Assembly: GCA_032622095.1 (NCBI GenBank)
Contig: CP136066.1
Location: forward strand, 116,147,319 to 116,211,318
Length of the DNA stretch: 64,000 nucleotides
Direction: 5' to 3'
DNA from: Siphonodentalium dalli
Taxonomy: Eukaryota > Mollusca > Scaphopoda > Gadilida > Siphonodentaliidae
Every line of letters begins with the position of its first letter. Within the stretch, counting starts at the first letter, position 1. The notes below the pieces were generated by a model. It saw only the letters and a program-made list of their open reading frames with translations, was not told the origin of the DNA and made no database searches. Made by a program: the position numbers and the translations under genes. Positions 38,461 through 62,300 of the stretch are shown piece by piece.

Positions 38461-38580
38461 ATTGCTGTTGCCATCTTTGACATGATAGAATACTATGACT
38501 CGGCATGTAAACTGAACATTGCCTTCAACAAGAACATAGGTATACGAGGATGGCAAGCATGTGCAAAACTCATACGAAAG
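38461..38580 (+). CDS. PPP1R37: PPP1R37-like protein, coding exon 5 (last exon in window)
   Basis: Acceptor TTTATCTACAG, donor CGAAAG|GTGAGA; exactly 40 codons, phase 0 at both ends. It reads IAVAIFDMIEYYDSACKLNI and continues AFNKNIGIRGWQACAKLIRK. This is the best conserved part of the five exons: vertebrate PPP1R37 has ALFDMIEYYESATHLNISFN and GTRGWQAAAHMMRK here (recalled). The next family exon (LQYLDARNTPLLDHSA type) is not found anywhere downstream, so the intron probably exceeds 25 kb and contains the large inverted pair at 38904-61878. Confidence 0.9.
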
Positions 38581-38819: not shown

Positions 38820-38903
38820 TACTCTCTGTGTACTTTGGAATTGAAATCTTTTTGGAGATATAATACATGGAATCTCCATGCTATACATTGAATCTCCATG
38901 CTA
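38820..38903 (+). repeat. Linker repeat (53-bp type), left flank of unit 1
   Basis: TGTGTACTTTGGAATTGAAA, TCTTTTTGGAGATATAATAC and GGAATCTCCATGC match the 53-bp repeat between the two large units, in the same orientation. There is about one and a half copies. Confidence 0.7.
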
Positions 38904-38940
38904 CAGCTATGCTCTAATTAATCGACCCCTTTAACGAGGT

Positions 38941-39150
38941 CATACCGCAACTACACCGCGGTCATGCGGTAGTACACCGCGGCCATGCGGTAATACACCG
39001 CGGTCGTGCGGTAGTACACCGCGGCCATGCGGTAGTACACCGCGGTCATACGGTAGTACACCGCGGTAATCTAGTCCGTTACCGGCGTGCACCGCGGTAG
39101 TATTTTCCGTGACGGCCTTACACCGCGGTCATTCCTCGTGTCAACCGCGA
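38941..39150. repeat. 21-bp ACCGCGGT minisatellite, left end of unit 1
   Basis: About eight to ten copies of TACACCGCGGTCATGCGGTAG. ACCGCGGT is itself a palindrome. Very CpG-rich compared with its surroundings. Confidence 0.88.
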
Positions 39151-40826
39151 TCGAATAATCTGCCGATAAGAATAATTTTCGCTGTTTTTTTGAAGACTCA
39201 AGGCTGTGTGACATTTTCGATCTGTTTTGTTCAAGTTGGTCTATAATATGCGTTAATATATTAAGAAACTGACCTTACATTCATTCATCGCGTGAAACTA
39301 AATATATTTTAGAGTACCGGTACTGACGTCTTCAATGGTTGACGTCCCCATGCACGTAATTCCTTGAGGTCGCCACTTTCGGCGGGCGCGGGCAATTGGG
39401 TGATAATATGCTCGGATCTATATTCAGACATACTTCCAAGTCTTTTCGTACGTAAATCAGTTAGAACATTTGGATAGCGATTTTTTCCGCGGAATTATAC
39501 CGAAAAAAACACGACCACATGTAAGCCAAGGAGACAGAGAATTTTCAAATTCAATTCCAAATATGCCGACACAACTCCATTCAACTCCAACGCGATAACA
39601 AAATCCGGAATAAAGAACTAAACATACCACCACACAGTGTCTTTATTTATTCTCTGTTCAAGATGCTTTAAAAAATATTTATAAGAATTATCAGATTATC
39701 AGATTTTTGTGTCGGTGAAATTTGGCGATCGCATAATTATCTTGCGCGAACCAACTTGAAACAGACTTATATAGAGGGATATTTTCCCCATTCCAATTGC
39801 ATACATGTGTTTCATCCGAATCGTGATTAGATAAGAATATGTAAAAAATATGTTGTACTGTGAACTGCCCACTACAGCAAATGCATGCGATTACCAAACG
39901 TTGCAGGAAAAGATCAAACAATGCCGCCCGACAATAATCACGAACGCGCACGTGGCCAGTGACGTAGCAACATCAAGGACAGAGTTTACAACATTGTCTA
40001 TCTCACTGACTGGTGTTTTGAATGTTTCTTTTCTCATGCATGCCGCCTGATAATTAACCAAACACTGCTGCATTGCATTTCGCTGCATTTGTCCCTGCAT
40101 ATCGGTGGATGTATATATACTCTGTGTATATATACCAGAAGATTACATTACGAACTTATTGAATTATGCTTTGTATAGAGCAGTTATGTCACTTATTTAA
40201 GTTTATATGCAATTGATCAACGGAAATAATTTTTATCAATCCATCTATCGCCGTACTATGAATTAAGAGCTCTATAGTCAACCCGACGTGTTGGCAAAAG
40301 AACGATCTAGAAGAAAATTATAAAATCAGTTGATACGTTCACCAACACGGCAACACCTCGCAGCTGTTGACTCAAATGCGATGAGGCCGTTCTTCAACTT
40401 GCCAATGTTTAAAAATGTTTTCGTGTTTAACCAATTTTCATCGGATTTTAAAGATACAGGCGCCTTGGATGTGGGTATGCTGTTAGTCCATATTGAACAT
40501 ATCGAAATATACAATGAATAACTGCGCTTCTACGAAATAGAAAACATGCATATATTGAAACTAATAATGCATATACATGTATTATGTAAACATTATCAGG
40601 AACGGATCTGGAGGGGAAATTGACCACATGGAATAGTTAACGTTGCCATGGATTAAACCTCAAAATGGGACAATGATGCAACCAACTTGAACTGGTCTTT
40701 ATATATGGCTAATGTAAATTATTGAAATGTGTAACCACACGCGAACGTAATGCCATTCAAAAATTCAGAAATTTCCTCAGCATAAAATTCATAAACAGAG
40801 TATGATCTTGGCAACTAATTTTGTTT

Positions 40827-43800
40827 TGTTTTATGACAATTTACTCAAATGTTCACTTGGTGGAACTTAATGGCTATCATATATGCATGGCTATTACATG
40901 TAATCTATCGTAACTACATGTGATTTTACTTAATTAACATGCAATATAGTCAGGCCACCAGATACAGTAGTTGATACAAGTGTGGTTCACACCAATCATA
41001 TACATCACAATCACGTGCTTCAGTGATAATGTCCACTATTATACACATGCAATGTTTATCAAGACTAAAGTTTCAGGATGTCGTTGTAAAATTGATTGAT
41101 TGTGTTTTTTCATCAATTGACAAAATTAATGTTTATTGCCAGGACGAAGTACCGCATAATACGGAGATGTGTGCTAACAAATCTGGGAGTCATATTTATG
41201 TAAGTGTCAGTCAAAACATTTAGGACATGGGAATATTTTTTTTATTTCGTGGTCACGAAATAACTTTTATTCGTGGCCACGAAATAACAAATTCGTGGCC
41301 ATGAAATAAATAATTCGTCGTCACGAAATAAATAATTCGTGGCCACGAAACAACTAATTGTGATGTACGATTGTCAGTCCCATTGTTGTAATGGAAGCGA
41401 ATAGAGATGATCTGGTTGTAATTGTCCACCATCTTGGCATGAGCCACGGCGATTTGAGATAAAGAGTGTTTTAGGGTGGCCCGTAAAACAAATTCAGTAA
41501 TAACCCCTTTCACCAACCCGATCCAAAGTTGCCGCCGTCCTGGGTGGGTTACATAGGCACCCACGACATTCAGTATAGCTTGTGGCCACGCTACAGCACC
41601 AATTATACCACATCAAATAAGGGGTCGGGATATTGTATAGGTGTCAGATTTGAACCCATCTGGGGTGGCCATTTAGGATCGGGGATGATAAAAGCGGGGT
41701 GAACATTTAGTTTGTCTCAGGGGTCACCCTACAACACACTGTATTCGACCTAAAATGGGGGGGGGGGGGGTGTGCATGGTACCATGTATGGTCCCCTTTG
41801 ATCAGTTATCATTTTCGCTCGAGTGGGCTGAAGGTGTGAAAATTTAGCTTGCTTTGTGAGCCACGGCACCCTTTATTTGATCTATATATCGGTCAAGTGA
41901 CCGAGAAATAATGTGTACCCCATTTGACCCCTTCTGAGTGGCGACCTTTTTGGATCGGGGATGGTTGAAAGGGGTGAATATTTATAAGCTTGTATTGGGC
42001 ACACCCTACAAAACCCCTTATTCGACTTAAATCGGCCAATATGCCGAGAGAAATGGCATTCCCATTCGATCCCTTGGCCTTGTGGTAAAAACTAATGAAT
42101 ATTCAGTTTGTCTTGGAGCCACCTGACCCGTATTTCCCCGTTCTTTCTGGACTAGTTTATATAGGACGCCCAAATACCCATAGAGCCCGGGTCCCACACC
42201 ATAAGGGGTTTATAGTAGCTTCTCTGCGATCGTACACATTGTTTCTAAAACAGCATCAAGTTAGTGTAACCATACCGTAAAGGTATCTGGATATATGCAA
42301 AGGTCAATCAGTTATTTCGTAAAAATGTGAAAGAATGTTATCATGTCCATGTGCATTGCTAAATATTGCTGGGCTTATATAGATGGTTGTTCTATAATTC
42401 CTGGTCGGGTTTATTTAAATTGGGAGTTTAAATTATGTTTATCTGATGATAAAGAAAACACTTTCTCCGTCCACTCGATACCTCCCGCGGGATACATGTT
42501 TCACATACTAAAATAATATCTTAGTCAACACAACAAATCTCTCCCTCAAATACTTTGCCACAAGAATAACAATAATTTGTCAGCATAAATAGGCAAAATT
42601 AGATAGTGTCTATAGTCAGATGCATGGTATTGGAAACTGTACATATTTGTGCCCCATGGGCCATTGATCGAGAAACTTAGTCTAGGAAATTACCAGGAAT
42701 TCACTTGAAATAGCAATTATAGCTTATAGGGTCGTAATTCGACGTTTGCGTTTCCGATACAGTTAATACCCAAATGTGAAATTTGAGATGTATACCTGGT
42801 CGTCGAAGTGAACGGTTGTTAATCAAATACCACAATTGTGTACTAATCATTCATTGGTATTGCCTTAATTTAGTCAGTGTCTAATCACATGGTGCTGGTT
42901 TTGTTCAAAGTTGGGCACATGCATGTCTAAAACTATATATGCAGCCATGTTCTGCATATAGGCCACTGATCATTATAAGATCGGGAGACTTTGCTACCGG
43001 TCCCGATAGTAACGATTACTAAGCACCTACTCGGAATGCAGGAAAATGCAACTATGGACGATAACTATTTTACTCATTAAGCTCTACTTTAGTGGAAATT
43101 CGAATTTACTTGATTTTCACAGCTATGCACGAATCGTGGAGATTAGTTGTGGTCAGAATATTGATGGTGAATGTTGGGTTTCAGTCGCTGCACTGAACGT
43201 AACTGGCGTGGGAAGCGTTGATTTCTTGTTAACATCCGGAATTCTACTCTAGAGGTGTCCAGGTATACATAACAAAAATCGGTCCGGAGGAATCCTGCAT
43301 GGTGGTCCATATGGGTGTACCTAGCTGCCCGACTGCAAAGCCTATACCGCTATATATATAGTAAAGATCTCAGCTGCACCGAAATGTCCGTTTTTCAGTA
43401 GCACAAATCCTGCACAAACACATATTCTCTCAGTGCATGTGAGTTAATGACAACGAACAACTACCATCTATACCTGTGTATTTGCGACACTACATCCCGT
43501 TATGATCAACGATGTGGTTTTTAAAACTGTCTAGTCAGTAGACAACAAGACAGACAAGACAGTATCAAATAAAACAATGAAATAATATGTAATCACATCG
43601 TGAACAGTCTTGTTGTGAATATTTTCATTTGATTCAACAGGCTGCAAATTATCGAAACTACGAAACCATTCGACACTTACTTTTGCCAATTACTGTATCT
43701 TGAGGCATAACTATGTCATATATTGCAACTAATCAAATCACGGATAGTTTCAGTGTGTCAAACACGAATGTTAAACTTCATATATAGTTGCGCACGATTG

Positions 43801-44570
43801 CCAATAAGTGTTTATTACAATCAACGTTTGAGCATAACACGAAATTCTCCATTGGGTTAAGTGTTAAATTTTTATCGCAACTGTAGCCAGCAAAAATCAT
43901 CTGATCACATCCATTCTTTTTTAAACTACGTCTGTGTTTCATACTTAGTGCTTTTTATGAATATCAGTACGCGTATAGCATCATACGCAAAATGGCGCCA
44001 TTTATCCAAAGTACTAGAATCTCCATAGGCCTCAGTGTTAAATTTTGATCACAACTGTAGCCAACAAGAATGAACCGATCATATCAAATTTTTCAAAAAT
44101 ACATGTAATTGTCATATCTAGTAGATTGGAGAAGTTTCTAATTGCACCGATCACCATATATAGACCAGATGGCACCATCTATCGTTTTCTGTAAATACGA
44201 AACGCTCTCTAAATGATGTTGACCCCGATTTAGGCCGACGCCGCCAAAATTCAAGAATGGAAACAAGTCAATCCTGAAAACACACCTACTAGGCATACAT
44301 AATCCGTTTTCAGATCGCTTTTAACAAACCAAAAATTCTAAATGACATAAGGAATCCGACTATCTCCTTGGTGCACTTTGCTTATACATATTGATAGTTT
44401 AAAAACTTTGATTTAAAAAAAATGAAAAAATAACCACCATTTTTGTTTAATTTGATATTTGAATGTTTTTGCTCAATTTAACAATAAAAATTTAAATTAA
44501 AAAATTCAGAAATTTCCTCAACATAAAATTCATAAACAGGAGTATGATCTTGGCAACTAATTTTGTTTTA
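40827..44570. repeat. Segment present in unit 1 but absent from unit 2
   Basis: Up to about 40826 unit 1 matches unit 2 (…CTTGGCAACTAATTTTGTTTT). It then diverges, and the same junction text reappears at about 44550-44572, so about 3.7 kb including a duplicated edge is extra in unit 1 (or deleted from unit 2). It contains degenerate repeats of about 150 bp with CACCCTACAACAC and GATCGGGGATG (about 41440-42120). The 68-codon frame at 43046-43252 has no known domain. Confidence 0.55.
41248..41360. repeat. Palindromic minisatellite TTCGTGGCCACGAAATAA
   Basis: Five copies of the 14-bp palindrome TTCGTGGCCACGAA (with GTGGTCAC, GTGGCCAT and GTCGTCAC variants), separated by AT-rich linkers at a spacing of about 22-25 bp. 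Confidence 0.88.
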
Positions 44571-46358
44571 ACGATATCTGACCAACAACACACAGCTTCA
44601 TCAAAAGAGAAATTATTACGTCACCAGTTGTCTATTTATATGAATCACGCGCGACTTACTTTGTGGGATTTGTGACCGCTGTTACTACACTAATATTCAT
44701 TGTGTTAATGATTACTTATTGTCACTTTCTCTGCAAGAGTTATTTCATTCTGAATCAAATGTCGTTTGTATACTTGGGTTCACAAAATTTATGTCGGCAA
44801 GAAATGTTAAAAGTTGAGCAGGCGGAATCGACCTGTGCCATAACCGCGTGTTATAATATACATATTTATTTCGGGTATATATGCCACTCTTTGAAACACA
44901 TGTAGGCGTCCATTTACCATATATGAAATAAATTTACCCTACAATTTATTCAACAGCATGGACCAATAAAGAGCGTTTAGTGTCCATATAATTATATAAG
45001 ATTGATATAAACTTTATACATTAAATATTTCGTGTAGGCCTATTTATTAATACTATACTATCATGAAAAGTTATCCCGACATTCATAATAATTCCTTTGA
45101 AACAATCACCAAAACTAACTTATTGTAGTGGATCCCACAACGTTAATTTAACTCCTGAATTAATTGAATACGCGTCCAAGACCATTCATTGCAGTTCGTT
45201 TTTTTTAACCATGCAATGTGATCGCGTTTAAACATGGGCATGTTACTTGTAGAATTTACTATCAACAATCCCAAACTATTCGCAACCGATGGTGCATGAT
45301 CATGTTTTATTGGCTTGAATGAATTCAGTTCTTTCTCATAAAAAGCCGCTTCGACAAATGAGGCCGAAAGTCATATAAATATTCGGTAACGTCTATAAGA
45401 TGCCGATCCAGAGAGCGGTTTGAGCAATTATTTTACTCACAAATATTCGATGCCGATGGTCACTCCAGAGTCAGATGTAGACTTTTTACGAATATTCACT
45501 AGTGGAATGAGCTTACGGTTGCTAGGAGGCAAGGAATCTGCAGAAATAGTTGAATTGATTTATCAGCGTTTGTGATGATGTCAGACGAAACACTCTCCTT
45601 GATGCGCTTTGCTTCTACATATTGATAGTTTAAACACTTTGATTTAAACAAAATGAAAAAATAACAACTATTTTTGTTTAATTTGAATTTTGAATGTTTT
45701 GCTCAATTTAACATCAAAATTTAAATTTTTTAAAAATACATATAATTGTTATATTTTTTTAGATTGCTCAATTTAACATTTGACCAAACATATATTCATG
45801 AAATATCCGGAAACTTCCCCTTTTAATATTAGTTATAGTGTTACAGTCTATATTGAACATATCGAAATATACAATTAATAACTGCGCTTCTACGAAAGAG
45901 AAAACATGAATATATTAAAACTAATAATGCATATACATGTATTATGTAAACATTATCAGGAACGGGTCTGTCGGGGAAACTGACTACATGGAAAATTTGA
46001 CATGGATTAAACCTCAAAATGGGATAATGATGCAACCAACTTGAACTGATCTTTATGGCTAATGTAAATTATTGAAATGTATGACCACACGGGAAAGTAA
46101 TGACATTATAAAAATAAGAAATTTCCCCAGCATAAAATTCACAAACAGGAATATGATCGTGGCAACTAATTTTGTTTTAACGATATCTGACCAACAACCC
46201 AGCTACATCAATAGAGAAATTATTACGTCACCAGTACTGTTGCAATCTATTTATATGAATCACGCGCGACAGACTTTGTGGGAATTTGTGACCGCTGTTA
46301 CTACACTGATATTCATTGCGTTAATAATTACTTATTGTCACTTTCTCTGCAAGAGTTA

Positions 46359-47132
46359 AGCTGCTTTCACATACATGCGTCTAACGCATGCGTTTTACGC
46401 ATGCGTTTTACGCATTCGTATGCGCATCGTTTCGATCTCCAATGTTATCGCTGGGGCTTTCACATACCATCCGCTAAACGCGCGTGCGTGCGCCCAAAAC
46501 TTTTCGCTCCCAGACCGAAAAGCTGTCCGTTTTACGCATAAGCGGACAGGGGTATTCGGTGCGATGTCGTTAATCATGGGATATACCGTAGATATTTTGT
46601 GGTGTTTACGAATGAGAATGGTATATATGTGGGGGCGTATGCCAGCTGCTGGCACCATGCTATCTAATCTTGGGTCAAATGCTAACCTCTGTTTTGGGCA
46701 CCGTGGCTCTCGGCTCTTTCGCATTTTCTGTATATCGTCGCCGATGAAATGCAATATTAACGAAAACTGTTCGCGAGACACCCTGAAATAACCAATGAAC
46801 TTGTCTTCACCCGAATTCCGAAATTCTTTCCGAATACAAATTTTTGACAATTAGATTAGCATATGCCCCTTGTTCTCTTCTTTTCTTAACTATTTCGTGC
46901 TCCCAAAAGCGTCTTGGTCTCTTCCGTCGTCTTTCGTTATATATACACAAAGCAATCATTAGAACGTCCTTGTCGTCGTCGGAATCCATGGCGAGAGGAC
47001 AATATGTAAACACAAATAATTATTCACGCATCCGTTAACGGACGCGTACGCGCAGAGGTAAAAGGAGGTATGTGAAAGCTCTAAACGGATCCGTAAAACA
47101 CATGCGTAAAACGCAAGTATGTGAAAGCAGCT
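46359..47132 (-). mobile_element. Harbinger-type element, 774 bp, internally deleted
   Basis: The termini AGCTGCTTTCACATACATGC and GTATGTGAAAGCAGCT are inverted repeats flanked by TTA on both sides (46356-46358 and 47133-47135), the PIF/Harbinger target. Excising the element and one TTA restores CAAGAGTTATTTCATTCTG, which is exactly the uninterrupted paralogous text at about 44735 in the same unit and (as complement) near 56500 in unit 2. Subterminal parts are rich in ACGCATGCGT. It carries the broken 5' part of a transposase gene on the minus strand. Confidence 0.9.
46680..46989 (-). pseudogene. Harbinger transposase fragment (HARBI1-like N-terminus), frameshifted
   Basis: The frame starts at 46989 (good context GCCATGG) with MDSDDDKDV and continues RRRKRPRRFWEHEIVKKRRE, QGAYANLIVKNLYSE. 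A frameshift follows at about 46820-46840, and the second frame continues with EDKFIGYFRVSREQFSLIL, HFIGDDIQ and PKQRLA. The order RRFW.HEI..KR.EQGAY.NL, then F...FR(M/V)S...F..IL, then P..RLA is the recalled N-terminal signature of Harbinger nucleases. The DDE catalytic domain is missing altogether; after PKQRLA the frame leaves the family. It cannot encode a working transposase. Confidence 0.8.
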
Positions 47133-50100
47133 TTATTTCATTCTGAATCAAAGGTCGTTCACAAAATTGACGCAGGCAAACTTTTTAAAATGTTGAGTAT
47201 AGGCGGAATCGACCTGTGCCATAACCAAATAGTTATTTCAAGTATATATGGCAGTCTTTGGAACACATGTAGGCATCCAGTTACCCAATAGGAAATAAAT
47301 TTACCCTACAATTTATTCAACAGCATGGATCAATAAAGAGCGTTCATTTCTCATATAATTATAAGATTGATATAAACTATATACATTAAATATTTCGTAT
47401 ATTTATTAATACTTATACCATGAAAAGTTATCCAGACATTCATAGTAATTCCTTTGAAACAATCACCAAAAATAAATTATTGTAGTGGCTTCCACAACGT
47501 TAATTTAACACCTGAATTAATTGAATAAAAACGCGGCCCAAGACAATTGCAGTTCGTTTTTTTTAACCATGCAATGTGATCGCGTTTAAATTATGGGCAT
47601 GTTAGAATTTACTATAAACTTATCTTTACAGCTAACGTATTGAAATTGATAACCGCAAGGGAACACAATGACATTATCGAAAATCACATGCTAGACAAAC
47701 AAATGTATTAGATGTGTTCTGACCTTCCATACTGTGCATGATTTGAAACAGAGTGGCAGAGCATGGATTACGTAACGCCGTAATCTCTTTGATGTGCATG
47801 TATTAACATTGCGACTGCTTTCGCCTTTCAGTTCGAGTGGACTTCCACTCATCGATGACTATTAAAGTTGGGCTGGCAAATTCTTATTTGTGTTACAAAC
47901 AGGAACGTTCTAACTTTAAATTTTTCGCATAGAAGTGAAACAAGCGCTCTTTATTTCTACCATATCCGGAATAGACTAACACAAACGCTCTTTTTGTTCC
48001 ATGCCAATGCCATGCACATGACTTGTTTGTTTGGGACCCATACCAAACACCAAGTTTAAAGCTGTTTTTTTGTTCATTACTTCTATGCCTCTTTTTTGGG
48101 ACATATGATGCGCGTATAAAGTTAATTCAAGTATTTATCGACCGCTTTTGGATCAACTTATGTTGAAAAATCACGTGCAAGAAAAACGGTGATAAAAATT
48201 TATTAGCTGTTTTCCAACCGTCCAGGCATCCACACAAACACTCTGTATTCGTATCATGTAAGGAAATAACCTGCAAGATGTATTCAAAACTCATCTCAGC
48301 ACAATTGTTCATTGGTCGACAGGCATGACATGAAAATTCGCAAATTTAGAGAAATATTTTAAATGAAAATAATCATTTTATTTCACGAATCAAGAATTAA
48401 GTCTCCGCCCATGATCTTGAGATATCAGTGATATATGAACTGCACTTTTGAAAAATTATTTTGCAGGTGTTCTTGATAATTGAAAACAGTGAAATTTTAA
48501 ATAGTGTACATTCCATAAAACTAAAGTAAATAAGATTATACCCAATGGTCTGAATGGTTCTTAAATATTGTGTCACTCACAATAATCGAATGTACCAAAT
48601 TTCACGAAGAAATTCTTGACCGGCAGATTTTGAGAAAATCCATTTTGAAATACCAAAAATGAAGGATCCATTTTGAAATACCAGGTAATTTTGACAAAAC
48701 GTGCGTCTGACCCTTAACATACATTTGATTCGTATAAGCAAACAGAAACTATTTCTAGAATGTTTCAACAGCTTCTTTTTGGCATGCCCAAATTCAAGGA
48801 AAGCAAACAGACAATTTAATGCGCCATCTGATCAGTGATCAATTAATTATTAAACATATTGATACTGAAATAATTATGTGACAGCCGTGCAATAAGACGG
48901 GACGAGCATGTACCTCCAACAAACAACAGCATAATGTCAACCTGCAATATATATAGCTCATGCATGCACTTTACCTATTTTGTAATTACAGAACGAGCAG
49001 GATTACGCAACGTGGAATCTCTTTGATGTGCTTGTATATATATTGCTACCGCTTTCGCCTTCAGTTCGAGTGAATAGACTTTCAGTCAGCGACAACTCAA
49101 GTTGGGTCAGTTGCTGCCGTCAGCAGATTTGTGTTTTGTTTTAAACTGTCATAATTAAACGGACATGCACTGTCTCATTCAAGCTTCCAAATTCCATCTA
49201 CGTAATTTGGAAGGAGGTATGAGATACATGTAGGTTGACACGAAATATTGACATTCCTGCTTCGCGTGCTCTAACAACAATTCTCCAGCTGTTTTCAATT
49301 TTTCACACGAATGAAACGCTCTTTATGTCTAACATATCCGAAATAGATCAACACGGAACGATCTTATCTGTGTCATGCCGTGCAAACAGTGAAACTGCCT
49401 TCATATTATTTTGGGACCCAACAATATTTAAGTTCTCATACTGGGTTGACATGCATACACATATGACGAATGCAAGGGCCCAAGTACCATGCATGCGCGA
49501 ACAAGCAGACATTCCCGAGACACACAGCGTTCAACCTCAACGTTTTCCAATAGCGTTTGTACTCATTGACCAGATGTTCTAAAAATAATTAATTCCACTG
49601 CGAGGTTTCCGACAAACATTGCCACGTGGTATCCTACTCGGTGTACCAAATTACTACGAAAGTGTGTGGATATACCGAATGAATGAGGATTTATTCATTT
49701 TATTAAATACATTTATACATTATTAAATATAGTGGTTTGTCAAAAAGAAATGCACAATTAATACAAACCGGGCGGTGTCATGGCCATAAATGTTTTCCTG
49801 ACAGTGCCCAGAACTATATAAGGATATATAACACTACTCTAAATGACTTTATTTTCGTGAGTTAATTTTCGTCACTCCAGGCTAATTAGCACTCCCAATA
49901 AAGCCAATTTTTTTTTTTTTTAGTACTAATGTGATGTTCAGTAAAAATCCCGAAAATGGATCGGTTTCAAAAGATTTAATGAGGTCCGTTGATTCTCTAA
50001 AATGGAACAAATAAAGAGCGTTTGTTGTTGTCATTCCAAGTTACCAAATATGTTGTTAAAATTTATAATTCGTTATCTATTTCAAAAGAATATATTTGTT

Positions 50101-50444
50101 ACCTTGAGAAATGTCACCATGCATGCCTCGGGTTCGGCAACTTCTTGGTGCTAATTTTATCGTCAAATCGTTGCTAATGCAGATCTGGGATTGCGCGAGG
50201 TGGATTCAGTGAAATGCAAGACCCGATGTCTATCGTATACATGATATAGCTATGCCTTGTATATTGATTGCCTCCTACTTTCAGCGAACTCATGCAGTTT
50301 TAAATGTGTAAAATAGCGTATTTCGAATGATCCAATCACAAATTAACACACACAAACAAAAAACAAAAACAATTAATTGAAATTAATAAAGAGTGTCTTC
50401 ATATATGAAACTTATAAAGAGCGTTATTATTAAACCATGCATGT

Positions 50445-50465
50445 GGGGGGGGGGGGGGGGGGGGG
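50445..50465. repeat. G21 homopolymer in unit 1
   Basis: 21 consecutive G. The mirrored position in unit 2 is C23 (51867-51889). Lengths of such tracts are unreliable in sequencing. Confidence 0.9.
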
Positions 50466-50777
50466 TCTTGCCTGGCACTGCTGTATTAACAGTATTTTAA
50501 TGGAGTTTGGGTTACTATTAACTCAATAACGGGAATAATAACTCCGGCAACTTGGAATATTATATATAATTTTTATTCATTAAAAACGCAAAATCGTAAT
50601 CTCCTCGGCAGTGCCGAACTTCCGAAAAAGTACCCGATCGACCCTAACGGCATACGCAGAACAAATCTAACAACAGATATACCAGATAAGTCATTTTATT
50701 GTAGTTAAATAACGATTAGGTGTATGCAACTTCAGTTTTCTATCGCCGCCGCGTGCAACCAAGAAGTTATTAAAAGA

Positions 50778-51028
50778 CATCGCGGTCATGAAATTCGTTA
50801 CGGCGTAAGTCAATCGCGGTCATGAAATGCCTTACCCCATGTCACCGCGGTCGATACCACCGCGGTACCAAAAAACTGACCGCATGACCGCGCTATTACA
50901 CCGCGGTCAGGCGTTATTACACCGCGGTCAGGCGTTATTACACTGCGGTCAAGCGTTATTACACCGTGGTCAGGCGGTATTACACCGCCCGACCGCGGTA
51001 TTACACAGCGGTCATACCGCATGTCAAC
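50778..51028. repeat. 21-bp ACCGCGGT minisatellite, right end of unit 1
   Basis: Copies of ATTACACCGCGGTCAGGCGTT with variants (CTGCGG, CCGTGG). Several units read as a 7-residue peptide repeat on either strand, which explains the frames at 50810-51036. Confidence 0.88.
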
Positions 51029-51064
51029 CTCGTTAAGGAGGGTCGATTAATTAGAGCATAGCTG

Positions 51065-51233
51065 TATGTAAGTACTTGGGATTTGAAATCTTTGGGGATA
51101 TAATACATAGAATCTCCATGCTGTGTACTTGGGATTTGAAATCTTTGGGGATATAATACATAGAATCTCCATGCTGTGTACTTGGGATTTGAAATCTTTG
51201 GGGATATAATACATAGAATCTCCATGCTGTGTA
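51065..51233 (+). repeat. 53-bp linker repeat, three copies, between the two units
   Basis: ACTTGGGATTTGAAATCTTT starts at 51074, 51127 and 51180, an exact 53-bp period; each copy continues GGGGATATAATACATAGAAT CTCCATGCTG. The copies are nearly identical to each other and in the same orientation as the linkers at 38820 and 61879. Confidence 0.9.
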
Positions 51234-51269
51234 CAGCTATGCTCTAATTAATCGACCCTCCTTAACGAG

Positions 51270-51503
51270 GTTGACATGCGGTATGACCGCGGTGTAATAA
51301 CGCGGTTGGGCGGTGTAATACCGCCTGACCGCGGTGTAATACCGCCTGACCGCAGTGTAATAACGCCTGACCGCGGTGTAATAACGCCTGAACGCGGTGT
51401 AATAACGCCTGACCGCAGTGTAATCAGGCGGTCAGTGTTTTGGTACCGCGGTGGTATCGACCGCGGTGTCGTGCGGTAAGGCATTTCATGACCGCGGTGT
51501 CTT
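51270..51503. repeat. 21-bp ACCGCGGT minisatellite, left end of unit 2
   Basis: Mirror of 50778-51028: GACCGCGGTGTAATACCGCC and variants, about ten copies. Confidence 0.88.
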
Positions 51504-51866
51504 ATAATAACTTCTTGCACACGGCGGCGATAGAAAACTGAAGTTTTATACACCTAATCATTATTTAACTATAATAAAATGAGTTATCTGGTATATCTGT
51601 TGTTAGATTTGTTCTGCGTGTGCCGTTAGGGTCGATCGGGTACTTTTCTTGGAAGTTCGGCACTGCCGAGGAGATTACGATTTTGCGTCGGCATTGTTTT
51701 TGTCGAGGGAGATTTCGAGGTAAGTATCGACATTTCTTATCATGAATAAAAATTATATATAATATTCCAAGTTGCCGGAGTTATTATTCCCGTTATTGAG
51801 TCAATAGTAACCCAAATTCCATTAAAATACTGTTAATACAGCAGTGCCAGGCAGTGCCAGGCAATA

Positions 51867-51889
51867 CCCCCCCCCCCCCCCCCCCCCCC
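51867..51889. repeat. C23 homopolymer in unit 2
   Basis: Mirror of the G21 tract in unit 1; preceded by a duplicated GGCAGTGCCA. Confidence 0.9.
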
Positions 51890-52690
51890 GAATTGCTGGG
51901 TATCGGTACTACAAAGGCACGGAAAAAGCGTGCGTCATAGCGATTGACCAGTATTCACATTACTGCATTCACCACGCTTCAGTTACTATATATGAGTGAA
52001 ATTAAATAATTATGTGAAATAGCCCGACGAGACCAATTACAACATCTCATTGTTCACAAATTAAACAACTACTATCCAACGTAGTGACCGCTAATCGCCA
52101 ATATTCAAACTGATAATCAGGTCAGACAGTGACCTCAATGACCTCTTATCAAAAGCCGACATAAAAAAATATGTAGACAGTAAACAAGTGTTGCGTCATG
52201 CACTGTCTCTACAGTTGAGTTCAAGATAATGTGGTATAACATCAAAATCACTTCCCCAAACGGAGATCTCGCGTAGAATTCTTGTATTTTATTAATTGGA
52301 TAGGGATATTTACACTAGTAACAATTATTAACATTTTAATTGTTTTTATTTGTAATTAAACATTTCGTTCTTGTTTTGATGTGAACTGTCATGCACTCTT
52401 CCGAGTTGTAGGCTGTGACGTCATCGTGGCGAATGCCAAAACTCACCTGTGTCTAACTTAGCCAGAATTCAGACCCCCTATAACATGTTGTATATGGCGC
52501 ATGCATATTTGATGGGAAATACTGGGTAAAAAAAGACTTTAGTAGCGAAAGAATTATTGTGTGTTGGATTAATTAACCCCCAGACAGCCGATACCGCCGA
52601 CAATTAATTCCTTATTCACGCATCGGACTTGTCAGCATGCCGACGAAAATGAAACTTATCTGTGTCGAATGGTCATGTTAACCTCATTTT
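51890..52690. other. 0.8-kb segment specific to unit 2
   Basis: In unit 1 the text goes directly from the G tract to CCATGCATGG-type sequence. Here 0.8 kb separates the C tract from GGTGCATGGATTAATAATAA. No exon or repeat ends were recognised, so insertion here or deletion in unit 1 cannot be told apart. Confidence 0.5.
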
Positions 52691-52694
52691 CAGG

Positions 52695-52815
52695 TGCATG
52701 GATTAATAATAACGCTCTTTATAAGTTTCATATATGAAAACACTCTTTATTAATTTCATATATGAAAACACTCTTTATATATTAATTTCATATATGAAAA
52801 CACTCTTTATTAATT
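52695..52815. repeat. Short tandem TTTCATATATGAAAACACTCTTTATTAA
   Basis: Three to four copies of a repeat of about 31-36 bp containing TTTCATATATGAAA and the CTCTTTATTAA motif. The corresponding place in unit 1 (about 50375-50425) has only one to two copies. Confidence 0.75.
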
Positions 52816-55800
52816 TCAATTAATTGTTTTTGTTTTTTGTTTTTGTGTGTGTTTGTTAATTTGTGATTGGATCATTCGAAATACGCTATTTTACTCTATA
52901 AAACTGCATGAGTTCGCTGAAAGTTGGAGCAATCAATATACAAGGCATAGCTATATCATGTATACGATAGACATCGGGTCTTGCATTTCACTGAATTCAC
53001 CTCGCGCAATCCCAGATCTGCATTAGCAACGATTTGACGATAAAATTAGCACCAAGAAGTTTGGGGCATGCATGGTGACATTTCTGAAGGTAACAAATAT
53101 ATTCTTTTGAAATAGATAACGAATTATAAATTTTAACAACATATTTGGTAACTTGGAATGACAACAAAAAAACGCTCTTTATTTGTTCCATTTTAGAGAA
53201 TCATCGGACCTCATTAAATCTTTTGAAACATCCATTTTACTGAACATCACATTAGTACTAAAAAAACAAAATTGGCTTTATTGGGAGTGCTAATTAGCCT
53301 GGAGTGACGAAAATTGACTCACGAAAATAAAGTAATTTAGAGTAGTGTTATATATCCTTATATAGTTCTGGGCACTGTCAGGAAAACATTTATGGCCATG
53401 ACACCGCCCGGTTTGTATTAATTGTGCATTTCTTTTTGACAAACCACTATATTTAATAATGTATAATGTATTTAATAAAATGAATAAATCCTCATTCATT
53501 CGGTATATCCACACACATTCGTAGTAATTTGGTACACCGAGTAGGATACCACGTGGCAATGTTTGTCAGAAACCTCAGCACCTCGCAGTGGAATTAATTA
53601 TTTTTAGAACATCTGGTCAATGAGTACAAACGCTATTGGAAAACGTTGAGGTTGAACGCTGTTTGTCTTGGGAATGTCTGCTTGTTCGCGCATGCATGGT
53701 ACTTGGGCCCTTACATTCATCATATGTGTATGCATGTCAACCCAGTATGAGAACTTAATATTTGTTGGGTCCCAAAAGAATATGAAGGCAGTTTCACTGT
53801 TTGCACGGCATGACACAGATAAGATCGTTCCGTGTTGATCTATTTCCGATATGTTAGACATAAAGAGCGTTTCATTCGTGCGAAAAATTGAAAACAGCTG
53901 GAGAATGGTTGTGACCATGAAACGTATTTGTTAGAGCACGTGAAGCCGGAATGTCAATATTGCGTGTAATTGTCAACCTATCTTATACCTCCTTCCAAAT
54001 TACGTAGATGGAATTTGGAAGCTCGAATGAGACGGTGCATGTCCGTTTAATTATGACAGTTACAAAACAAAATCTGCTGACTGCAGCAACTGACCCAAGT
54101 TGAGTTGTCGCTGACTGAAAGTCCATTCACTCGAACTGAAGGCGAAAGCAGTAGCAATATCTATACAAACACATCAAAGAGATTGCACATTGCATAATCC
54201 TGCTCGTTCTGTTATTACAAAATAGGTCAAGGGCATGCAAGAGCTATATATATTGCAGGTTGACATTATACTGTTGTTTTTGGAGGTACATGCACATGCT
54301 CGTCCCGTCTTAATGCACGGCTGTCACATAATTATTTCAGTATCATGTTTAATAATTAATTGATCACTGATCAGATGGCGCATTAAATTGTCTGTTTGCT
54401 TTCCTTGAATTCGGGCATGCCAAAAAGAAAAAAATATATAGATTCACAGAGCTGTTGAAACATTCTAGAATTAATTTCTGTTTGCGTATACGAATAAAAT
54501 GTATGTTAAGGGTCAGATGCACGTTTTGTCAAAATTACATGATATTTCAAAATGGATCCTCTATTTTTGGTATTTCAAAATGGATTTTCTCAAAATCTGC
54601 CGGTCAAGAATTTCTTCGAGAAATTTGGTACATTCGATTATTGTGAGTGACACAATATTTATGAACCATTGGGTATAATCTTATTTACTTTACTTTTATG
54701 GAATGTACACTATTCAAAATTTCACTGTTTTCAATTATCAAGAACTCCTGCAAAATAATTTTTCAAAAGTGCAGTTCATATATCCATGCTATATCACTGA
54801 TATCTCAAGATCATGGGCGGAGACTTAATTCTTGATTCGTGAAATAAAATGATTATTTTCATTTAAATATGCAACTACCATAAATATTTCTCTAAATTTG
54901 GGAATTTTCATGTCATGCTTGTTGATCAATGAACAATTGTGCTGAGATGAGTTTTGAATACATCCTGTATGTTATTTCCTTACATGATACGAATACAGAG
55001 TGTTTGTGTGGACGCCTGGACGGTCGGAAAACAGCTAATAAATTTTTATCACCGTTTTTCTTGCACATGATTTTTCAACATAAGTTGATCCAAAAGCGAA
55101 CAATTGTCGTGCCAGGTCTAAATTAAACCTGGAAAAATATATATGTATCGCTTGAATATTGTAATTTTTTCCATGAAATGTTAACATTTCCCACGTCAAT
55201 CTAATTGTCCTTCGTTAGTTGTAGTTTCGTATGTATACACATATTAAATACTATATTATATAGTAGGCTAGTATAGCTATACCAGAGGCAAGTTTTTTTT
55301 TATTGAAATTGATTCGATGTGAAAACGGGCCGTGGCTCTAACATTGGTTCTAAATCAGAAAGAGATAATGACGAAAATGTCCCCCTTGACATTCAAGCCA
55401 CGTGGCGGTTTGCGCTCCAAAATACACCTAATATTATTCGCTTTTGAATTTTTCCCCCCGATATCGAAATTGGTCGATAAATACTTGATTTAACTTTATA
55501 CACGCATCATATGTCCAAAAAAAGAGGCATTGAAGTAATGAAGAAAAAAAACGGCTTTGAACTTGGTGTTTGGCATGGCTCCCAAACAAACAAGTCATGT
55601 GTATGGAACAAAAAGAGCGTTCGTGTTAGTCTATTCCTGATATGGTAGAAATAAAGAGCGCTTGTTTCATTTCTATGCGAAATATTTAAAGTTAGAACGT
55701 TCCTGTTTGTAACCTGATAACACAAACAAGAATCTGCCGACCCAACTTGAATAGTCATCGATGACTGGAAGTCCACTCGAACTGAAAGGCGAAATTTAAG

Positions 55801-57167
55801 CCACGGCGAATGCAGTCGCAATGTTAATACATGCACATCAAAGAGATTACGGCATTACGTAATCCATGCTCTGTCACTCGGTTGCAAATCATGCACAGTG
55901 TGGAAGGTCAGAACACATCTAATACATTTGTTTGTCTAGCATGTGTTTTTCGATAGATAAGTTTATTGTTAGCCTCCTCAATTTAGGAGAGCATATATAC
56001 AAATGACAATTATATATGTTACATAAATATGCATGCAAATGTAATACTAGTCACAATATTAATATAACAGTGTTTATGCCATGTCAAAACGAACTGCAAT
56101 TGTCTTGGGCCGCATTTGCATATTCAGGTGTTAAATTAACGTTGTGGAAGCCACTACAATAATTTATTTTTGGTGATTGTTTCAAAGGAATTATTATGAA
56201 TGTCGGGATAACTTTTCATGGTATTAGTATTAATAAATATACGAAATATTTAATGTATATAGTTTATATCAATCTTATAATTATATGAGAAATGAGCACT
56301 CTTTATTGATCCATGCCGTTGAATAAATTGTTGGGTAAATCTATTTCCTATTGGGTAACTGGACGCCTACATGTGTTCCAAAGACTGCCATATATACTTG
56401 AAATAACTATTTATAACACGCGGTTATGGCACAGGTCGATTCCGCCTACTCAACTTTTAACATTTTTTGCCGGCGTCAATTTTGTGAACGACCTTTGATT
56501 CAGAATGAAATAACTCTTGCAGAGAAAGTGACAATAAGTAATCTTTGACGCAATGAATCTTAGTGTAGTAACAGCGGTCACAAATTCCCACAAAGTCTGT
56601 CGCGCGTGATTCATATAAATAGACAACAGTACTGGTAACGTAATAATTTCTCTATTGATGTATCTGTGTTGATGGTCAGATAATGTTAAAACATTAGTTA
56701 CCACGATCATATTCCTGTTTGTGAATTTTATGCTGGGGAAATTTCTTAATTTTTTAATGTCATTACTTTCCCGTGTGGTCATACATTTCAATAATTTACA
56801 TTAGCCATAAAGATCAGTTCAAGTTGGTTTTGCATCATTGTCCCATTTTGAGGTTTAATCCATGGCAAATTTTCCATGTGGTCAGTTTCCCCGCCAGACC
56901 CGTTCCTGATAATGTTTACATAATACATGTATATACATTATTAGTTTTAATAATGTCAAGTTTTCTATTTCGTAGAAGTGCAGTTATTAATTGTATATTT
57001 CAATATGTTCAATATAGACTGTAACACTATAACTAATATTAAAAGGGGAAGTTTCCAGATATTTCATGAATATATGTTTGGTCAAATGTTAAATTGAGCA
57101 ATCTAAAAAAATATAACAATTTAATATATATTTTTTTTAATTTAAATTTTGATGTTAAATTGAGCAA

Positions 57168-60110
57168 AAAGATCAATCTAAAACATTCAAAAATCAAATT
57201 AAACAAAAATAGTGGTTATTTTTTCATTTTGTTTAAATCAAAGTGTTTAAACTATCAATATGTATAAGCAAAGCGCACCAAGGAGAGTGTTTCGTCTGAC
57301 ATAATCACAAACTCTGATAAATCAATTCAACTATTTCGACAGATTCCTTGTCTCCTAGCAACCGTAAGCTCATTCCACTAGTGAGAATATTTGTAGAAAG
57401 TCTACAGCCAACTCTGGAGTGACCACCAGCATCGAACGTGTTACGTAACGTTACGCATGGTGGATTGCGACTGTTTTGTAATTCCTAATTGATTTGTCCA
57501 TATACGAAACGTTATATATATGAAGGATTTCACTTTGGAATCATGACTGACTAATTTCGTGGTATGAAATTGAGACATCGCAGGTTAAAATCCGATGAGA
57601 AATAGGTTAAACACGAACTATATTTTAAATATTCGCAAGTTGAAGATCGGTTTCAGTCATCGCGATCGAGTTAGCACCTAATAGATGTTGATGAACGTAT
57701 CAACGGATTTTATAATTTTCTTGTGGATCGTTCTTTTACAAACACGTCGACACACAACATGATCGGGGGGGGGGGTATATTTGTGAGTAAAATAAGTGCT
57801 CAAACCGCTCTCTGGGTCGGCATCTATATAGATGTTACCGAATATATATATGACTTTCGGCCTCATTTATCGAAGCGGCTTTTTATGAGAAAGAACTGAA
57901 TTCATACAAGCCAATGAAACATGATCATGCACCATCGGTTTCGAATAGTTTGGGATAGTTGATAGTAAATTCTACATGTAACATGCCCATAGTTTAAACG
58001 CGTTCACATTGCATGGTTAAAAAACGAACTGCAATGAATGGTATTGGACGCGTATTCAATTAATTCAGGAGTTAAATTAACGTTGTGGAGCCACTACAAT
58101 AATTTAGTTTTGGTGGTTGTTTCAAAGGAATTATTATGAATGTCGGATAACTTTTTATTGTATTATAGTATTAATAAATACACGAAATATTTAATGTATA
58201 TAGTTTATATCAATCTTATAATTATATGGACACTAAACGCTCTTTATTGATCCATGCTATTGAATAAATTGTAGGGTAAATTTATTTCATATATGGTAAA
58301 CGGACGCCTACATGTGTTTCAAAGACCGACATATATACCTGAAATAAAAATGTATATTATAACAGGCGGTTATGGCACAGGTCGATTCCGCCTGCTCAAC
58401 TTTTAACATTTCTTGCCGACGTCAATTTTGTGAACCCAAGTATACAAACGAAATTTGATTCAGAATGAAATAATTGCAGAGAAAGTGACAACAATTAATT
58501 GTTAACGCAATGAATATTAGTGTAGTAACAGCGGTCACAAATCCCACAAAGTAAGTCGCACGTGATTCATATAAATAGACAACTGGTGACATAATAATTT
58601 CTCTTTTGATGTAGCTGTGTGTTGTTGGTCAGATATCGTTAAAACAAAATTAGTTGCCAAGATCATACTCCTGTTTGTGAATTTTATGCTGAGGAAATTT
58701 CTGAATTTTTTAATTTAAAATTTGATGTTAAATTGAGCAAAAAGATCAATCTAAAAACATTCAAATATCAAATTAAACAAAAATAGTGGTTATTTTTTCA
58801 TTTTTTTTAAATCAAAGTTTTTAAACTATCAATATGTATAAGCAAATCGCACCAAGGAGAGTGTTTCGTCTAACATAATCACAAACGCTGATAAATCAAT
58901 TCAACTATTTCTGCAGATTCCTTGTCTCCTAGCAACCGTAAGCTCATTCCACTAGTGAGAATATGTGTAGAAAGTCTACAGCCGACTCTGGAGTGACCAC
59001 CGGCATCGAACGTGTTACGTAACGTTACGCATGGTGGATTGCGACTGTTTTGTAATTCCTAATTGATTTGTCCATATACGAAACGTTATATATATGAAGG
59101 ATTTCACTTTGGAATCATGACTGACTAATTTCGTGGTATGAAATTGAGACATCGCAGGTTAAAATCCGATGAGAAATAGGTTAAACACGAACTATATTTT
59201 AAATATTCGCAATTTGAAGATCGGTTTCAGTCATCGCGATCGAGTCAGCACCTAAGAGATGTTGATGAACGTATCAACGGATTTTATAATTTTCTTGTGG
59301 ATCGTTCTTTTGCCAACACGTCGATACACGACATGATCGGTGGGGGGGGGGGTATATTTGTGAGTAAAATAATTGCTCAAACCGCTCTCTGGGTTGGCAT
59401 CTTATAGATGTTGCCGAATATATATATGACTTTCGGTTGTCGAAGCAGCTTTTTATGAGAAAGAACTGAATTCATACAAGCCAATGAAACATGATCATGC
59501 ACCATCGGTTTCGAATAATTTTTCATTGTATTATAGTATTAATAAATACACGAAATATTTAATGTATATAGTTTATATCAATCTTATAATTATATGGACA
59601 CTAAACGCTCTTTATTGATCCATGCTGTTGAATAAATTGTAGGGTAAATTTATTTCATATATGGTAAACGGACACCTACATGTGTTTCAAAGACCGACAT
59701 ATATACCTGAAATAAATATGTATATTATAACAAGCGGTTATGGCACAGGTCGATTCCGCCTGCTCAACTTTTAACATTTCTTGCCGACGTCAATTTTGTG
59801 AACCCAAGTATACAAACGAAATTTGATTCAGAATGAAATAACTCTTGCAGAGAAAGTGACAATAAGTAATCATTAACGCAATGAATCTTAGTGTAGTAAC
59901 AGCGGTCACAAATCCCACAAAGCAAGTCGCGCGTGATTCATTTAAATAGACAACTGGTGACGTAATAATTTCTCTTTTGATGTAGCTGTGTGTTGTTGGT
60001 CAAATATCGTTAAAACAAAATTAGTTGCCAAGATCATACTCCTGTTTATGAATTTTATGCTGAGGAAATTTCTGAATTTTTGAATGTCATTACGTTCGCG
60101 TGTGGTTACA
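57168..60110. repeat. Direct duplication of about 1.57 kb inside unit 2, plus a partial third copy
   Basis: The text AAAGATCAATCTAAAA...CAAATTAAACAAAAATAGTGG begins at about 57168 and about 58741. GTTACGTAACGTTACGC, AACGTTATATATATGAAGGA, the GATCGG...GGGGG tract (57763 and 59337) and the CGCTCTTTATTGATCCATGC block recur with it. A third copy of the latter part starts at about 59518, where the text jumps from CGAATAATTT to TTCATTGTATTATAG. Confidence 0.8.
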
Positions 60111-61682
60111 CATTTCAATAATTTACATTAGCCATAAAGACCAGTTCAAGTTGGTTGCACCATTGTCCCATTTTGAGGTTTAATCCATGGCAACTATTGT
60201 GGTCAGTTTCCCTGCCAGATCCGTTCCTGATGTTTACATAATACATGTATATGCATTATTAGTTTTAATATATGCATGTTTTCTATTTCGTAGAAGCGCA
60301 GTTATTCATTGTATATTTTGATATATGTTCAATATGGACTAACAGCATACCCACCTCCAAGGCGCCCGTATCTTTAAAATCCGAATTGGTTAAACACGAA
60401 CAATATTTTAAATATTGGCAAGTTGAAGAACGGCCTCATCGCGTTCGAGTCAACAGCTGCGAGGTGTTGCCGTGTTGGTGAACGTATCAACTGATTTTAT
60501 AATTTTCTTCCACATCGTTCTTTTGCCAACACGTCGGGTTGACTAGAGCTCTTAATTCATAGTACGGCGATAGGTGGATTGATAAAAAAAATTTCCGTTG
60601 ATCAATTGCATATAAACTTAAATAAGTGACATAACTACTCTGTACAAAGCATAATTATAGACTACAATGAGTTCGTAATGTAATCTTCTAGTATATAGAC
60701 ACAGAGTATATATACATCCACCGATATGCAGGGACAAATGCAGCGAAATGCAGTGCAGCAGTGTTTGGTTAATTATCAGGCGGCATGCACGAGAAAAGAA
60801 ACATTCAAAACACCAATCAGTGAGATAGACAATGTTGTAAACTCTGTCCTTGATGTTGCTACGTCACTGGGCACATGCGCGTTTGTGATTATTGTCGGGC
60901 GGCATTGTTTGATCTTTTCCTGCAACGTTTGGTGATCGCATGCATTTGCTGTAGTGGGCAGTTCACAGTACAACATATTTTTTTTAAATATTCTTATCTA
61001 ATCACGATTCGGATGAAACTCATGTATGCAATTGGAATGGGGAAAATAACCCTCTATATAAGTCTGTTTCAAGTTGGTTCGCACAAGATAATTATGCGAT
61101 CGCCACATTTCACCGACACAAAAATCTGATAATCTGAGTCCCGCCAGAGTAGAAAAATATATTCTGATAAATATTTTTTAAAGCATCTTGAACAGAGAAT
61201 AAATAAAGACACTGTGTGGTGGTATGTTTAATTCTTTATTCCGGATTTTGTTATCGCGTTGGAGTTGAATGGAGTTGTGTCGGCATATTTGGAATTGAAT
61301 TTGAAGATTCTCTGTCTCCTTGGCTTACCTGTGGTCGTGTTTTTTCTGTATAATTCCACGGAAAAAATCGCTATCCAAATGTTCTAACTGATACGTACGA
61401 AAAGACTTTGAATTATGTCTGAATATAGATCCGGGCATATTATCCCCCAATTGCCCGCGCCCGCCGAAAGCGGCGACCTCAAGGAATTACGTGGGGACGT
61501 CAACCATTGAAGGCGTTAGTACTCTAAAATATATTTAGTTTCACGCGATGAATGAATGTAAGTTAAGTTTCTTAATATATTAACGCATATTATTGGCCAA
61601 CTTGAACAAAACAGATCGAAAATGTCACACAGCCTTGAGTCTTCAAAAGAACAGCGAAAATTATTCTTATCGGCAGATTATT

Positions 61683-61853
61683 CGATCGCAGTTGACACGA
61701 GGAATGACCTCGGTGTAAGGCGGTCGCAGAAAATACTACCGCGGTGTACGCCGGTAACGGACTAGATTACCGCGGTGTACTACCGCATGACCGCGGTGTA
61801 ATACCGCATGGCTGCGGTGTACTACCGCATGACCGCGGTGTAGTTGCGGTATG
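61683..61853. repeat. 21-bp ACCGCGGT minisatellite, right end of unit 2
   Basis: Mirror of 38941-39150 with fewer copies: TACCGCATGACCGCGGTGTA and variants. Confidence 0.86.
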
Positions 61854-61878
61854 AGGTCGATTAATTAGAGCATAGCTG

Positions 61879-62093
61879 TACTTGGGATTTGAAATCTTTG
61901 GGGATATAATACATTGAATCTCCATGCTATGTACTTTGGAAATGAAATCTTTGGGGAAATAATATATGGAATCTCCATGTTGTGTACTTTAGATTTTAAA
62001 ATGCCATTTATAATCTGTTTCAATCCAAAATTGTGTCAGATTAACATTTGCTTAGCAGTTGTGAAGCGAGGATATTGCAATGACACACAAATA
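61879..62093 (+). repeat. Linker repeat (53-bp type), right flank of unit 2
   Basis: ACTTGGGATTTGAAATCTTT and two diverging copies follow at about 53-bp spacing (61880, 61933, then decayed), in the same orientation as at 51065. The last about 100 bp (ATTTATAATCTGTTTCAATC ...) are not repeat. Confidence 0.72.
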
Positions 62094-62300
62094 CAGCTAT
62101 GATCTAATTAATCAACCCCTTTAACAAGGTTGTAGGCCGCTCATGACTATAGTCATACCACCACTAGTTCGTGGTCAAGCGGTATTACTGCGAGTGCTAG
62201 CAGTTAACACGCGGTAGGCACTTGTAACATTACCATAGTAATATGTTTTAACCACGTTTACCGCATAAGTTACCTCTGCATACCACGTTAAGTTTTTGAG
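62094..62300 (+). mobile_element. Third copy of the large-unit terminus, decayed
   Basis: CAGCTATGATCTAATTAATC then AACCCCTTTAACAAGG matches the left terminus of unit 1 with three changes. The following GC-rich text (CATGACTATAGTCATACC, AACACGCGGTAGG) looks like a decayed ACCGCGGT array. About 0.6 kb further on (62838) TGCTCTTTATTATCCGTGCC matches the internal motif of the units. Possibly the start of a third, degenerate unit running out of the window. Confidence 0.6.

Follow-up and report, generated by a model that had tools for sequence, protein, structure and literature searches.

Giant TIR-bounded elements without recognised genes form a dispersed, TA-inserting family in the scaphopod Siphonodentalium dalli

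The locus

The window analysed here is the whole 64,000-nucleotide stretch of Siphonodentalium dalli DNA taken from contig CP136066.1 (assembly GCA_032622095.1). It contains two large units, A and B, together with the features collected in Table 1. An earlier note on this DNA had described head-to-head units of 12.2 and 10.6 kb around a 169-bp linker, with a common 20-bp terminus and a 21-bp minisatellite at all four ends, and each of these particulars was borne out. The terminus (CAGCTATGCTCTAATTAATC) matches exactly at 38904(+), 51064(-), 51234(+) and 61878(-), against a mean of 0 in 100 shuffles, and a period-21 array was detected by TRF at every end. The palindromic repeat of these arrays, ACCGCGGT, is present in six copies in the first 500 bp of A and in five in the last, with four and six in the corresponding parts of B, and nowhere else in the units. 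Reverse-complemented, B aligns with A across 7,586 positions, of which 5.5% carry substitutions when gaps are ignored. A 33-mer taken from the 53-bp minisatellite in the linker has four genome matches at up to 3 mismatches, all inside the window; the repeat is therefore a local target and lies outside the element.

The pair seems, from the exons read on either side, to be intronic in a plus-strand leucine-rich-repeat gene; the exon upstream of the pair and the LRR-like exon downstream of the window are presumably both PPP1R37-like. Arrays of a 164-bp satellite lie at 13559-36864 in the same gene region, and this satellite is also present inside the 14.8-kb family copy C1:178.2M. In addition, a fifth, older-looking family end with one mismatch was found at 62094-62113 (+), with the 53-bp flank absent on its left. 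Its similarity to A ends after about 40 bp, while with the family copies C1:65.4M and C1:178.2M it agrees at 77-81% over 95 bp. A right end next to TA was sought for it at up to 7 mismatches in the rest of the window and the 7 kb beyond, and none was found.

Table 1. Features of the pair and its surroundings, and further giant copies in the genome
Feature	Position	Strand	Description
Exon upstream of pair	38461..38580	+	By reading the sequence
Left remainder of 53-bp minisatellite	38826..38903	+	38826-38882 matches linker units at 89%
Unit A	38904..51064	+	12,161 bp; giant non-autonomous TIR element; 5' type end left, 3' type end right
Left TIR of A	38904..38941	+	~38 bp; 38902-38940 pairs with 51066-51027 at 95%
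21-bp ACCGCGGT subterminal array, A left	38952..39067	+	TRF, period 21
A-specific interior segment	40828..44362	.	Absent from B and C1:29.9M
Nested insert in A	46358..47133	.	775 bp; PIF/Harbinger-like, with TTA duplication and inverted ends of 51 bp; in neither B nor C1:29.9M
21-bp ACCGCGGT subterminal array, A right	50890..51014	+	TRF, period 21
Right TIR of A	51027..51064	-	Self-alignment pairing with left TIR
Linker	51065..51233	+	169 bp; 3 copies of 53-bp minisatellite, target of both insertions
Unit B	51234..61878	-	10,645 bp; second copy, inverted
TIR of B, 3' type end	51234..51271	+	50 bases from 51234 are the genome-wide 50-mer
21-bp ACCGCGGT subterminal array, B (3' type end)	51284..51424	-	TRF, period 21
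21-bp ACCGCGGT subterminal array, B (5' type end)	61769..61842	-	TRF, period 21
TIR of B, 5' type end	61859..61878	-	20-mer match
Right remainder of 53-bp minisatellite	61879..61990	+	TRF
LRR-like exon	L038:3838-4083, within 8 kb downstream of window	+	LRR_1 E=0.02, below Pfam cut-off
Read giant copy	C1:29885986-29896458		10,473 bp
Read giant copy	C1:161766459-161783960		17,502 bp
Read giant copy	C1:178162771-178177565		14,795 bp
Read giant copy	C1:65434775-65451304		16,530 bp; left end with one mismatch
Giant copy by coordinates only	C3:116830506-116842451		11,946 bp
Giant copy by coordinates only	C3:173208887-173222355		13,469 bp
Giant copy by coordinates only	C4:216675812-216688996		13,185 bp

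The interior of the units

The units had been described as lacking recognisable protein domains, and this held. None of 11 ORFs from the two units reached the Pfam cut-off (the matches at E=0.068 and E=0.037 fall below it), and codon-phase bias reached p<0.05 in just 4 of 233 overlapping windows of the aligned A-B interior. Indels in multiples of three made up 6/32, 5/20, 2/10 and 3/13 of those in the four best A-B blocks. With codon phase absent, indels out of frame and no domain over the cut-off in these ORFs, a hidden interior gene was rejected, and the interior common to A and B looks non-coding.

A 151-aa ORF in A (46395-46850), which we take to resemble a Harbinger transposase although Pfam returned nothing for it, was likewise rejected as the element's own gene because it sits in the nested insert that B lacks. 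This 775-bp insert is a later PIF/Harbinger-like visitor to A, since it is missing from both B and C1:29.9M. The units hold internal direct duplications. The description of the interior as AT-rich needs correction: it is only slightly AT-richer than positions 1-38000 (GC in 1-kb windows 0.32-0.42, vs 0.34-0.43).

A dispersed family of giant and short copies

The assembly comprises 2.23 Gb in 9 contigs. A genome search with the 20-bp terminus, as proposed earlier, returned 796 exact matches (375+421), and the same pattern read backwards returned none. The 3'-type end (50 bases) has 187 matches at up to 1 mismatch, of which at least 17 lie in one tandem array on C4, and the 5'-type end (42 bases) has 138. 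An interior 40-mer of A gave 33 matches at up to 3 mismatches, 26 of them exact, and is present on all nine contigs; the possibility that the unit is single-copy thus fails.

Both ends were located for nine copies of 10.5-17.5 kb, which include a minority of the 33 interior copies. Six of them were read (A, B, C1:29.9M, C1:161.8M, C1:178.2M and C1:65.4M) and three are known from coordinates only. The interior marker is present in seven of the nine, C1:178.2M and C1:65.4M being without it. A further nine complete copies are shorter, from 249 bp to 2.7 kb, and have the same ends as the giants.

Four copies of about 1 kb (L019-L021 and L023) have identical flanks and seemingly represent one insertion multiplied within a larger repeat; such multiplied copies inflate the end counts. 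The C4 tandem array (L037, C4:2668931-2708955) consists of units of about 2.5 kb with at least 17 ends, each unit combining one family end with an open frame that we assume to be RhoGAP-like. Within the 17.5-kb copy at C1:161.8M (L011-L012), two inverted arms of 2,848 bp, 99.9% identical, enclose a loop that holds a long, presumably LINE-like open frame; this duplication is either a recent event or an assembly error.

Target site

Fifteen complete copies were read, and 14 of them are bordered by TA at each end; with the four ~1-kb copies that have common flanks counted once, this makes 11 of 12 distinct sites, L018 being the exception. The tally is of complete copies; of the single ends, at least the one in L003 is without TA. 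A and B each have TA on both sides, and the base next to the TA flanks varies among copies. An intact minisatellite junction in the linker, CTGTGTACTTGGG, is an exact empty site for B with a single TA. Similarly, a junction in the right flank, CATGCTATGTACTT, approximates the empty site for A, whose own right flank has three extra bases. An array copy at C1:29.9M supplies another empty site with one TA.

Small tandem arrays hold three of the six read giants (A, B and C1:29.9M), possibly by chance. That the family inserts specifically into the 53-bp repeat was considered and rejected, as other copies have different flanks and the 33-mer of the repeat matches only this window.

Origin of the pair

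A lies closer to copies on other chromosomes than to its neighbour: its distance is 4.2% to C1:29.9M (7108 positions) and 3.2% to C1:0.64M (2064), against 5.5% to B (7586). On the 1,968 positions common to all four, the corresponding values are 3.9%, 3.2% and 5.8%. A tree was built from 691-bp stretches of the 33 interior copies (A, B and 31 others), with half of its inner forks drawn open. A and B stand apart in it; a clade uniting them was rejected (AU test, p=0.010), and there was no sign among these copies that either was derived from the other. From the distances and the rejected clade, what had been taken as one giant inverted pair is a minisatellite hit twice: A and B inserted independently and do not form a unit. 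Local hopping has been reported for Tc1/mariner elements (PMC2874221, in the part available).

Two other readings of the arrangement have to be set against this. A single, locus-specific inverted duplication or palindrome of one element, perhaps kept for a long hairpin transcript, would account for the head-to-head layout, the 169-bp linker and the identical minisatellite on every side, and a hairpin would agree with the seemingly intronic, plus-strand position of the pair. It is nevertheless very unlikely: A is nearer to two distant copies than to B, the units are separated in the tree (many of whose forks are weakly supported), and each has its own TA on both sides. A local inverted duplication was accordingly rejected on the distances and the AU test. 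It is more improbable still that the assembly placed one unit twice in inverted order, since A and B differ by 5.5%, their junctions are distinct, and both the 775-bp insert and a 3.5-kb segment are specific to A.

Candidate transposases

A genome search with DDE_3 gave 90 matches. One lies between both family ends of the 16.5-kb copy at C1:65434775-65451304 and belongs to a decayed Tc1-like (DD34E) transposase remnant. A block at C5:41.22M, similar to this copy at 94-96% over about 3 kb, contains an open 332-aa frame (Pfam DDE_3, E=1.2e-19; Sleeping Beauty, E=4.2e-15), and the DD34E spacing was obtained by reading the alignment of this frame. No family end is present in the 9 kb read at C5:41.22M, and the edges of the block common to the two loci show no convincing inverted repeats. 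Their absence speaks against a complete nested Tc1 element; the block in C1:65.4M could be an old, eroded nested insertion. Upstream of the open C5:41.22M frame lies a BEN-domain-like open frame (L085:1880-2290; E=0.042, below the cut-off), which is possibly a second gene of the element there.

Matches to the Tc1-like protein number 134, and by eye, among the ends listed, only those in the C1:65.4M copy fall between family ends. No copy combining family ends with an intact transposase was found among the ends listed and the loci read. Two Tc1-like transposase copies, L086 and L087, start from a shared left boundary at which the family TIR is missing; they agree at 98% across 3.1 kb and contain MITEs of the CAGTAATG type. 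Members of a related MITE-like family, which end in CAGTAATGCTCTAA(A/T)TAATCGACTCC or a close variant of it, are mostly TA-flanked (L034:2537, L034:3491, L036:5385 and L086:2365), and some of its copies lie just downstream of open Tc1-like transposase frames. Of the eight DDE_3 matches listed on C1, two were situated 7-8 kb inward from a family end, and one of them was a bystander: the match at C1:258.6M belongs to a separate Tc1 that is bounded by inverted ends of its own, 49 bp long. Pieces of the Tc1-like block that occur in C1:161.8M and C1:178.2M were dropped as evidence of descent. They look like dispersed repeats, as one of them is also present beyond the bounds of the C1:178.2M element and a second is found again in L027.

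The superfamily is somewhat more probably IS630-Tc1-mariner (ITm) than any other, and that the partner is the particular Tc1-like enzyme of C1:65.4M and C5:41.22M is possible but doubtful. The family TIR, which we took to be pogo-like, prompted a search with DDE_1. A pogo-type transposase as the partner within ITm would draw on the 150 genome matches obtained, several with open frames, and above all on L081 (C1:197924408-197927803), where a pogo-like frame, open over 330 aa, is found some 12.7 kb inward from the family end at C1:197938975. Because of L081, the weight given to the Tc1-like enzyme was lowered. The inverted CAGTGAAACCTC ends of another pogo locus, L074, loosely resemble the family TIR, and were dropped as a family-end match for want of TA. 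This partner is quite unlikely, as the 12 of 150 loci read (3.4-3.6 kb each) show no TA-flanked family end and L081 is a single near miss that may have arisen by chance. Another TIR superfamily with short AT-rich duplications, either a CMC/PHIS relative or an undescribed one, would make the Tc1-like gene of C1:65.4M a bystander. The other Tc1-like transposase copies read, being without the family TIR, agree with this, as do the arrays and large size, since both large size and subterminal repeat arrays are common in CACTA-type elements. Such an origin is conceivable, though improbable on balance: the termini are CAGCT rather than CACTA, ITm elements in general duplicate TA (PMC10045372; PMC2874221, both as far as available), and, in the part of PMC4482050 available, ISL2EU duplicates AT within A|AT|T and PIF/Harbinger TWA.

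Comparison with known elements

The family resembles non-autonomous ITm elements, including Stowaway-type MITEs, in its TA duplication, short TIRs (~38 bp, 95% in A) and lack of coding signal, and its short copies end like its giants. It differs in the 21-bp palindromic subterminal arrays, in having a transposase partner that is putative, and in the length of its nine giants, which are far from the 1-5 kb given for Tc1/mariner elements in the available part of PMC2874221. This length lowers the claim of ordinary ITm membership. The short uniform size of a MITE does not apply either, with copies ranging from 249 bp to 17.5 kb.

Tandem repeats close to the ends are a feature of foldback transposons. 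The family is like them in this respect and in its 14.8-kb member C1:178.2M, which has inverted ends of about 1 kb at 83%, whereas the TIRs of A and B are merely ~38 bp; Tetris of Drosophila virilis is an example (PMC4079207, in the part available). Of PIF/Harbinger and ISL2EU (PHIS), only the 775-bp insert with its TTA duplication and inverted ends is reminiscent, the host element A having TA, neither TWA nor AT. For CMC (CACTA, Mirage and Chapaev), which would have CACTA-type termini and a CMC transposase, the termini observed here read CAGCT. A Maverick/Polinton, with its 6-bp duplication and its polymerase and integrase genes, does not match the TA flanks or the lack of any domain over the cut-off in 11 ORFs. 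Teratorn and its relatives, giant mobile elements, likewise far exceed the usual size range of their superfamily (PMC10175614, as far as available). Teratorn is a fusion with a piggyBac-like transposon, and the present family is without recognised genes.

The earlier suggestion of an undescribed element stands as regards a real, dispersed, TIR-bounded family without a recognised gene, but not as something clearly outside known kinds. The view that no transposon superfamily fits was not upheld, because TA duplications together with short TIRs are compatible with a cut-and-paste DNA transposon that is giant and non-autonomous. The family is real, multi-copy and unusual in size, yet it is of a known kind, namely giant non-autonomous TIR transposons with TA targets. 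No description of it was found in the part of the open-licence literature surveyed by titles and the starts of abstracts.

Proposed mechanism and significance

We consider it likely that A and B are independent insertions of a giant, non-coding, TA-duplicating TIR transposon family that is mobilised in trans. A TA-specific transposase, most likely of the ITm group, would act on the ~38-bp TIRs. Internal to these, at both ends, the palindromic ACCGCGGT arrays would probably give the transposase or a host protein additional places to bind, and the paired arrays may help synapsis by bringing distant ends together across 10-17 kb. Both copies would then have inserted a few repeat units apart, in opposite orientation, into one intronic 53-bp minisatellite.

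The giant size appears feasible for such machinery, as the Tc1-type transposon Sleeping Beauty remains active, though less so, when 18 kb long: between 3.2 and 18 kb, efficiency fell from 58.5% to 7.5% in HeLa cells and from 44% to 24% in GABEB cells (PMC4229213, in the part available). A bolder proposal, which we hold to be rather unlikely, is that gene-less elements of 10-17.5 kb are regular cargo of Tc1/mariner-type machinery, the paired arrays overcoming the size penalty, so that the giants would be adapted parasites and not swollen relics.

As the pair is seemingly in an intron of a plus-strand gene, the pre-mRNA could, speculatively, fold A on B as a long hairpin, and the intronic inverted pair is thus a possible source of long intronic double-stranded RNA. 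The interest of the family lies in its size, its absence of genes and the palindromic arrays near its ends, which may compensate for the size penalty, and the route by which such long gene-less elements amplify is an interesting question. A TA-inserting family amplified at 10-17.5 kb, with clustered palindromic arrays at its ends, would offer a test case for the movement of large cargo.
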